A stretch of 64,000 bases of DNA from Flavobacteriaceae bacterium UJ101 (GTDB taxonomy: Bacteria > Bacteroidota > Bacteroidia > Flavobacteriales > UJ101), in NCBI GenBank assembly GCA_001880285.1, contig CP016269.1, forward strand, positions 372,001 through 436,000, in the 5' to 3' direction. Below, piece after piece: positions 38,543-39,029 of this stretch (the first letter of the stretch is position 1; the number at the start of each line of letters is the position of its first letter). The notes below the pieces were generated by a model. It was not told the origin of the DNA and ran no database searches. It saw nothing but the letters and a program-made list of their open reading frames with translations. The position numbers and the translations under genes are program-made.

Positions 38543-38620
38543 GGGAAATTAGCTCAGTTGGTTCAGAGCACCTCGTTTACACCGAGGGGGTCGGGGGTTC
38601 GAATCCCTCATTTCCCACCA
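38543..38620 (+). tRNA. tRNA-Val (anticodon TAC), CCA encoded
   Basis: 75 nt plus an encoded CCA (38618-38620). Acceptor GGGAAAT/ATTTCCC, anticodon stem CCTCG/CGAGG closing TTTACAC (anticodon TAC), T arm GGTTCGAATCC. It is the only tRNA in the window with an encoded CCA. Its 3' half and terminator are repeated at 38959-39029, beyond the GIY-YIG gene. Confidence 0.96.
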
Positions 38621-38623
38621 ATA

Positions 38624-38660
38624 AAATCCATAATACTAAAAAGTGTTATGGATTTTTTTT
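38624..38660 (+). terminator. Terminator of tRNA-Val
   Basis: Stem AAATCCATAA/TTATGGATTT with a T8 run. An almost identical hairpin lies at 38995-39029, in the second repeat copy. Confidence 0.85.
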
Positions 38661-38673
38661 ATACTTAACAATT

Positions 38674-38922
38674 ATGAGTTGCTATGTTTATATTCTGTAT
38701 TCTAAAACATTGGATCGTTATTATATAGGTCAAACTCAAAATTTAGAGGAGCGAATTAAAAGGCACAATTCTAAGCACAAAGGTTTTACAGGAAAAACTA
38801 ATGATTGGGTTATTCTTTATAGAGAAGTATTTGCAAATCAAAGAGAAGCAATTAAACGAGAAAAGGAAATTAAAAATAAAAAGAGTAGAAAATATATTGA
38901 ATATTTACTTAGTGAAAAATAA
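38674..38922 (+). CDS. GIY-YIG nuclease domain protein
   Basis: 82 residues, a stand-alone GIY-YIG domain: CYVYILYSKTLDRYYIGQT (Tyr-Val-Tyr and Tyr-Ile-Gly), LEERIKRHN, and the basic AIKREKEIKNKKSRKYIEYL. The catalytic Arg of LEERIKRH and the late Glu are present. UPF0213/URI-type proteins are single-domain nucleases of unsettled function. The frame stays open after its TAA stop for about two dozen codons (NLEYPEFTSGGSGVRIPHFP) into the tRNA repeat, suggesting an ancestral longer frame read into tRNA sequence. Confidence 0.85.
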   Translation: MSCYVYILYSKTLDRYYIGQTQNLEERIKRHNSKHKGFTGKTNDWVILYREVFANQREAIKREKEIKNKKSRKYIEYLLSEK

Positions 38923-38939
38923 TTAAGGAATTTAGAATA

Positions 38940-38990
38940 TCCCGAATTCACTTCGGGAGGGTCGGGGGTTCGAATCCCTCATTTCCCACT
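38940..38990 (+). pseudogene. tRNA-Val 3'-half copy
   Basis: Matches tRNA-Val from the variable arm to the acceptor 3' strand, ending ACT in place of ACC. Upstream of the match is a hairpin CCCGA-ATTCACT-TCGGG that looks like an anticodon arm but differs from the Val arm, and there is no D arm or 5' acceptor. Not a functional tRNA. Confidence 0.75.
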
Positions 38991-38994
38991 AATA

Positions 38995-39029
38995 AAATCC
39001 ATAATGCTAAAAAGTGTTATGGATTTTTT
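38995..39029 (+). terminator. Second copy of the tRNA-Val terminator
   Basis: Same stem as 38624-38660 with one change in the loop. It now ends the GIY-YIG transcription unit. Confidence 0.8.

Follow-up and report, generated by a model that had tools for sequence, protein, structure and literature searches.

Here, we describe a cassette downstream of a tRNA-Val gene in a Flavobacteriales genome (3.07 Mb, single contig) that may be a unit from a family of small mobile elements living on tRNA genes. It lies in a 64,000-nucleotide window, the whole stretch of DNA that was analyzed. A unit of this family would measure about 315-380 bp and comprise the 3' part of a tRNA gene and its terminator, then a gene for a GIY-YIG nuclease, and finally a pseudo-tRNA of matching isotype in which a palindrome takes the place of part of the tRNA. 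Across the window locus and its relatives, we observed that the cassette is present or absent at one site, that native DNA is duplicated, that an intact tRNA is kept, and that cassettes are copied between loci and form tandem arrays. With moderate confidence, we favor a nuclease-driven element that is inserted into tRNA genes by homologous recombination and leaves one working tRNA behind. The window locus has the following parts.

38543..38620, + strand: intact tRNA-Val(TAC), the functional copy, at the left end (ARAGORN)
38588..38658, + strand: left copy of the 71-bp repeat, holding the T arm, acceptor 3' strand, and terminator (repeat comparison)
38620..38659, + strand: intrinsic terminator in the interval between the tRNA and the nuclease gene (inverted repeat I12 plus T run)
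38674..38922, + strand: single-domain GIY-YIG nuclease gene, 82 aa (Pfam PF01541, E 3.6e-17)
38924..38989, + strand: pseudo-tRNA with a decayed D-arm remnant, a palindrome, and an intact T arm and acceptor 3' strand
38940..38958, + strand: palindrome TCCCGAATTCACTTCGGGA, in place of the anticodon arm
38959..39029, + strand: right copy of the 71-bp repeat, holding the T arm, acceptor 3' strand, and second terminator

An earlier reading of the sequence alone had proposed that a 71-bp repeat with two mismatches flanks a single-domain GIY-YIG gene, and both the repeat (38588-38658 and 38959-39029) and the domain (E 3.6e-17) were confirmed. The two copies lie 371 bp apart, their similarity is far beyond chance, and identity is still 92% when the repeat is stretched to 83 bp. 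The nuclease gene is the only credible gene of the unit according to the ORF list and Pfam. ARAGORN reads the tRNA-Val as contiguous, with the insert downstream of it, and the interrupted tRNA that characterizes tRNA group I introns with GIY-YIG ORFs is thus absent. The same program miscalled the pseudo-tRNA (38912-38989) and the matching place in locus L002 as tRNA-SeC; annotation will acquire false selenocysteine tRNAs from such cassettes. The frame of the nuclease gene is indeed open past its TAA, as the sequence-only reading had noted, but nothing lends this openness a meaning, and a functional read-through was rejected as unsupported.

The only other tRNA of the genome that shares this 3' half, a second tRNA-Val at 1.994 Mb, is followed by the same cassette and then by a truncated further unit consisting of terminator, leader, and ORF start. 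From the tRNA to the right terminator the two tRNA-Val loci are 96.6% identical over 522 bp, whereas their flanks are unrelated; copying between the loci thus took in the cassette and both of its terminators.

Relatives of the nuclease were collected by searches of the order, the genus Flavobacterium, the phylum, and a named genome collection. In each of five sets, many of them lie no more than 130 bp downstream of the 3' end of a same-strand tRNA gene (13/30, 27/63, 25/30, 20/35, and 21/28), far above the chance expectation of about 0.0008. The association of GIY-YIG genes with tRNAs that the sequence-only reading suggested looking for is thus general. It extends to at least a dozen isotypes, among them Val, Ala, Pro, Arg, both Met types, Asn, Asp, Lys, and Phe, and further His, Ser, Cys, Gln, and Gly. 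Hosts of the tRNA-linked cassettes are mainly Bacteroidota, with a thinner representation of Ignavibacteriota, Calditrichota (L053), Nitrospirota (L070), and Patescibacteria (L065, L074, L076, L080). Tandem arrays with a spacing of 315-380 bp are common (G038, G039, G415, G767, G626). The collections of 50,697 phage and 72,556 plasmid records yielded no match, and a phage or plasmid origin was rejected; there was one weak match to a viral contig. A profile match was found in 190 of 296 sampled Bacteroidota genomes, a count that may also include members of a tRNA-free branch with flanking repeats. The cassette would hence be present in a large share of Bacteroidota, hidden by annotation: it has been overlooked because its gene is listed as a plain GIY-YIG nuclease, and the pseudo-tRNA either as a tRNA or not at all.

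The tRNA-free branch is a separate, well-supported clade of GIY-YIG genes that lie away from tRNAs and have genome-specific, dispersed, imperfectly palindromic repeats on both sides (e.g., GTCATGCTGAACTTGTTTCAGCATCTC; L021, L022, L024, L025, L027, L036, L093, L097, L098, L212-L214, L221-L226). This arrangement resembles a GIY-YIG version of the RAYT/REP systems.

Sites with and without the cassette, which the sequence-only reading had named as a check, both occur at one tRNA-Pro locus of Flavobacterium. The arrangement parA - tRNA-Pro - trxB contains a cassette in two species and lacks one at about 12 loci, i.e., it shows the presence/absence at a fixed site that is typical of homing genes. 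One occupied locus carries three units (L054 and L162, the same DNA in two collections) and the other a single unit (L164); L107 and L157 likewise derive from one genome. L164 exceeds the closely related empty locus L145 by a single unit of about 354 bp. L145 matches L164 up to L145:1586 and again from L145:1513, and this overlap of 74 bp, which spans the T arm to the native terminator, is duplicated in L164. The repeat thus marks the boundary of the cassette here, a point that the sequence-only reading had suggested testing. Another syntenic pair, L156 with the cassette and L146 with only a scar of the ORF start, records cassette loss. An intact tRNA was kept at nearly all sites examined. Among the relatives examined, no syntenic site, and hence no empty state, was found for the tRNA-Val locus of the window; the gene downstream of its cassette occurs in only 11 other genomes of 296 from the order, and in none of these does a tRNA or the upstream ABC gene lie nearby.

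In eight Flavobacterium genomes, one tRNA-Pro is occupied and a second one of the same sequence, within a Ser-Pro-Arg cluster, is empty; either the tRNA sequence alone is therefore insufficient or insertion within the cluster is selected against. The Pro gene inside the cluster was empty and the stand-alone Pro gene occupied in L247-L252, L254, and L155. Arg is the last gene of this cluster in Flavobacterium and is often occupied in other species.

The pseudo-tRNA is a regular part of the unit. Downstream of 59 of 88 tRNA-linked ORFs we found a copy of the tRNA 3' end matching in 17 of 22 positions or better, and 52 of these 59 copies have a palindrome with arms of at least 6. The isotype of the pseudo-tRNA is that of the upstream tRNA, and the end of the ORF often lies within the TAGCTCAG of the pseudo-tRNA. 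The palindrome replaces the anticodon arm in the Val, Ala, Pro, Arg, elongator Met, Lys, Ser, and Gln types. Elsewhere its location differs: initiator Met types have it beside the anticodon, Asn types in the region of the variable loop, Asp types behind the anticodon loop, and Phe types in the T loop. Many terminal copies have a second palindrome in the T loop. Its position is fixed per nuclease clade. In 50 cassettes, the palindrome arms, which were read by hand, are 98% paired as compared to 82% with shuffled right arms (0/2000 as high), and there are clear double changes (C-G/T-A, C-G/A-T, and A-T/C-G/T-A). Pairing of the palindrome is thus maintained by selection through compensatory changes.

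In the window, the arms of the palindrome read TCCCGA..TCGGGA. Stems of this kind between A and T runs occur 29 times in the genome, versus once for a reversed control pattern, and look like bidirectional terminators (e.g., L232-L243). A dispersed mobile palindrome was considered and rejected: the genome-wide copies inspected were mostly terminators, and we do not treat the motif as an independent repeat. As the genome commonly uses this motif as a terminator stem, the palindrome may have an ordinary role.

A mirror form of the cassette, in which a palindrome-bearing pseudo-tRNA is followed by the ORF and then by the intact tRNA, has the 5' half as the duplicated part. It was found in L065 (Patescibacteria), at a Flavobacterium tRNA-Pro (L210), and in the array of L228. 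The proposal of a tiny element that leaves a working tRNA and terminator behind is supported by these data, but its placement as an element inserting at the tRNA 3' end was too narrow, because mirror 5' insertions, tandem arrays, and the palindrome-bearing pseudo-tRNA belong to the system as well. Pseudo-tRNA units without an ORF also exist, in an array (L119) and in L139 and L152. Such nuclease-free, palindrome-bearing pseudo-tRNAs, in arrays or single (L119, L139, L152, L011), sometimes lie upstream of an intact tRNA, and are possible non-autonomous derivatives.

The protein belongs to the GIY-YIG superfamily (PF01541) by its profile match, active-site residues, and fold. Residues Y17, G19, R27, H31, and E63 are invariant and Y6 is nearly invariant in an alignment of 25 sequences. 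The AlphaFold model of the 82-aa protein has a pLDDT of 88, and its nearest folds are, in this order, UPF0213 (1zg2), Slx1, and I-TevI. Slx1 is a branched-DNA nuclease. The 82-aa nuclease has no added DNA-binding domain. It is under purifying selection, with dN/dS of 0.03-0.18 in species pairs with dS above 0.3; only these divergent pairs were used since the pooled figure holds duplicate loci, and the two copies of the genome itself are uninformative, as they differ at 4 sites. In a nuclease tree of 173 sequences and 78 columns, in which many forks are open, isotype labels require 34 changes against a mean of 122 for shuffled labels (0/200). Isotype preference is thus inherited with the nuclease. 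Switches of isotype also occur in the tree, and the Pro-directed sequences fall into at least two separate clades; in two of these, the palindrome occupies the same place.

In the nuclease-driven element that we favor, a move would begin with a break made by the nuclease. Host homologous recombination between the tRNA-like arms of a unit and an intact tRNA gene may then insert a unit as a partial tandem duplication, with an array unit, a circle, or another allele as the putative source of the incoming unit. A crossover 3' of the palindrome would place the intact tRNA on the left, which is the common form and the one seen in the window, and a crossover 5' of the palindrome would place it on the right, giving the mirror form. 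The palindrome could act as a hairpin or cruciform that is cut by a structure-specific, Slx1-like enzyme. As putative break site, the palindrome is slightly favored over the intact tRNA gene because its pairing is maintained and the fold of the protein resembles Slx1. The tRNA gene would instead be suggested by the clade-specific position of the palindrome and by the behavior of SegB (PMC13096335), but efficient cleavage of the intact tRNA is disfavored because the intact tRNA persists. A more specific and more tentative proposal, which we consider possible but rather doubtful in its entirety, is a nuclease-only element of less than 400 bp whose own cleavage site is the palindrome in its tRNA copy and which recombines homologously into one specific tRNA gene, on either side, with the gene always reconstituted; the repeat-flanked GIY-YIG relatives would then form a second branch operating on the same principle.

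The likeliest alternative is classical homing, in which the intact tRNA would be cut at the position of the palindrome and repaired from an occupied allele, the palindrome being a resistance lesion. Such a scheme would fit a palindrome position that is fixed per clade (anticodon arm, variable loop, T loop, or beside the initiator anticodon) and recurs at the same place in two separate Pro-directed clades, as well as the inherited isotype preference and the cutting within tRNA genes by SegB (PMC13096335). The persistence of the presumed target, the intact tRNA, nevertheless makes it doubtful: carriers keep this tRNA, and the same genomes have identical copies that are unoccupied, so that carriers would cut themselves; carrier immunity via target destruction, a further trait of homing genes, is absent if the intact tRNA is the target. 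A mere lesion, moreover, need not stay palindromic through compensatory changes, and the 82-aa protein has gained no DNA-binding domain. We thus regard classical homing as rather unlikely.

It is considerably less probable that the unit is passive cargo, moved by unequal crossing-over of tRNA repeats or by a tyrosine integrase in trans, with the nuclease serving otherwise. Repeats do recombine unaided, ORF-less pseudo-tRNA arrays are known (L119), and insertion at tRNA 3' ends, the classic targets of integrases, regenerates these sites and leaves partial tRNA copies behind (PMC9897764). However, the unit has no integrase, the 5' half can be the duplicated side (L065, L210), nuclease clades track the isotype, and the nuclease gene is under purifying selection. 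Least probable is a domesticated host function with the pseudo-tRNA as a decoy or regulatory RNA (e.g., against tRNA-cutting enzymes) and the GIY-YIG protein as its partner, for although pseudo-tRNAs of the right isotype with a conserved hairpin and a protein under purifying selection would suit it, the patchy presence, the tandem arrays, the decayed copies, and the occurrence of two copies at unrelated loci are what selfish DNA typically shows, and the palindrome lies outside the anticodon arm in Asn, Asp, Phe, and initiator Met, which makes for no uniform RNA mimic.

As a nuclease-driven element, the cassette would rank among the smallest autonomous mobile elements known, and it shows how a selfish nuclease could exploit essential tRNA genes without killing its host. 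Its isotype-associated enzymes offer a natural set for specificity studies of the bare GIY-YIG domain. Cassettes also account for spurious tRNA-SeC calls and, probably, for some breaks in assemblies at tRNA loci. A search of the open-access literature yielded no description of the cassette. The passages searched in a 2006 GIY-YIG phylogenomic survey do not mention such tRNA linkage (PMC1564403).

By sequence and fold, the nearest proteins are the UPF0213 GIY-YIG proteins (BH0048, PDB 1zg2) and Slx1, for which no tRNA linkage is reported in the literature consulted and which are not known as mobile elements. The REP/RAYT system resembles the cassette in tying a small nuclease-type gene to palindromic DNA and in having ORF-less derivatives, but its enzyme is a Y1 transposase, whereas that of the cassette is a GIY-YIG nuclease and its site a tRNA gene; in Pfam, the cassette protein matches GIY-YIG only, with no Y1 (HUH) transposase domain. 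The closest precedent is SegB, a phage GIY-YIG enzyme: it cleaves within tRNA genes and drives the amplification of the tRNA together with segB, in tandem and by homologous recombination (PMC13096335). SegB and the free-standing GIY-YIG homing endonucleases of T-even phages share with the cassette a nuclease gene beside tRNA genes and tandem tRNA-nuclease amplification (PMC13096335). In contrast to these, the cassette protein is a bare 82-aa domain, its hosts are bacterial chromosomes, its unit includes a palindrome-bearing pseudo-tRNA, and its nuclease clades keep to one tRNA isotype. Integrase-borne islands at tRNA genes carry the tRNA 3' part as a direct repeat, regenerate the intact tRNA, and leave a partial copy at the far end (PMC9897764). 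The cassette likewise has a tRNA end at both ends of the insert and a restored tRNA, but it measures only about 350 bp and has no integrase, its repeats include the terminator, a 5'-half version exists, and its partial copy contains a palindrome. The cassette lacks the defining trait of the SegB-type enzymes, carrier immunity by target disruption, and that of the islands, an integrase; in how it works, it resembles a hybrid of SegB-type free-standing nucleases and tRNA-regenerating islands.
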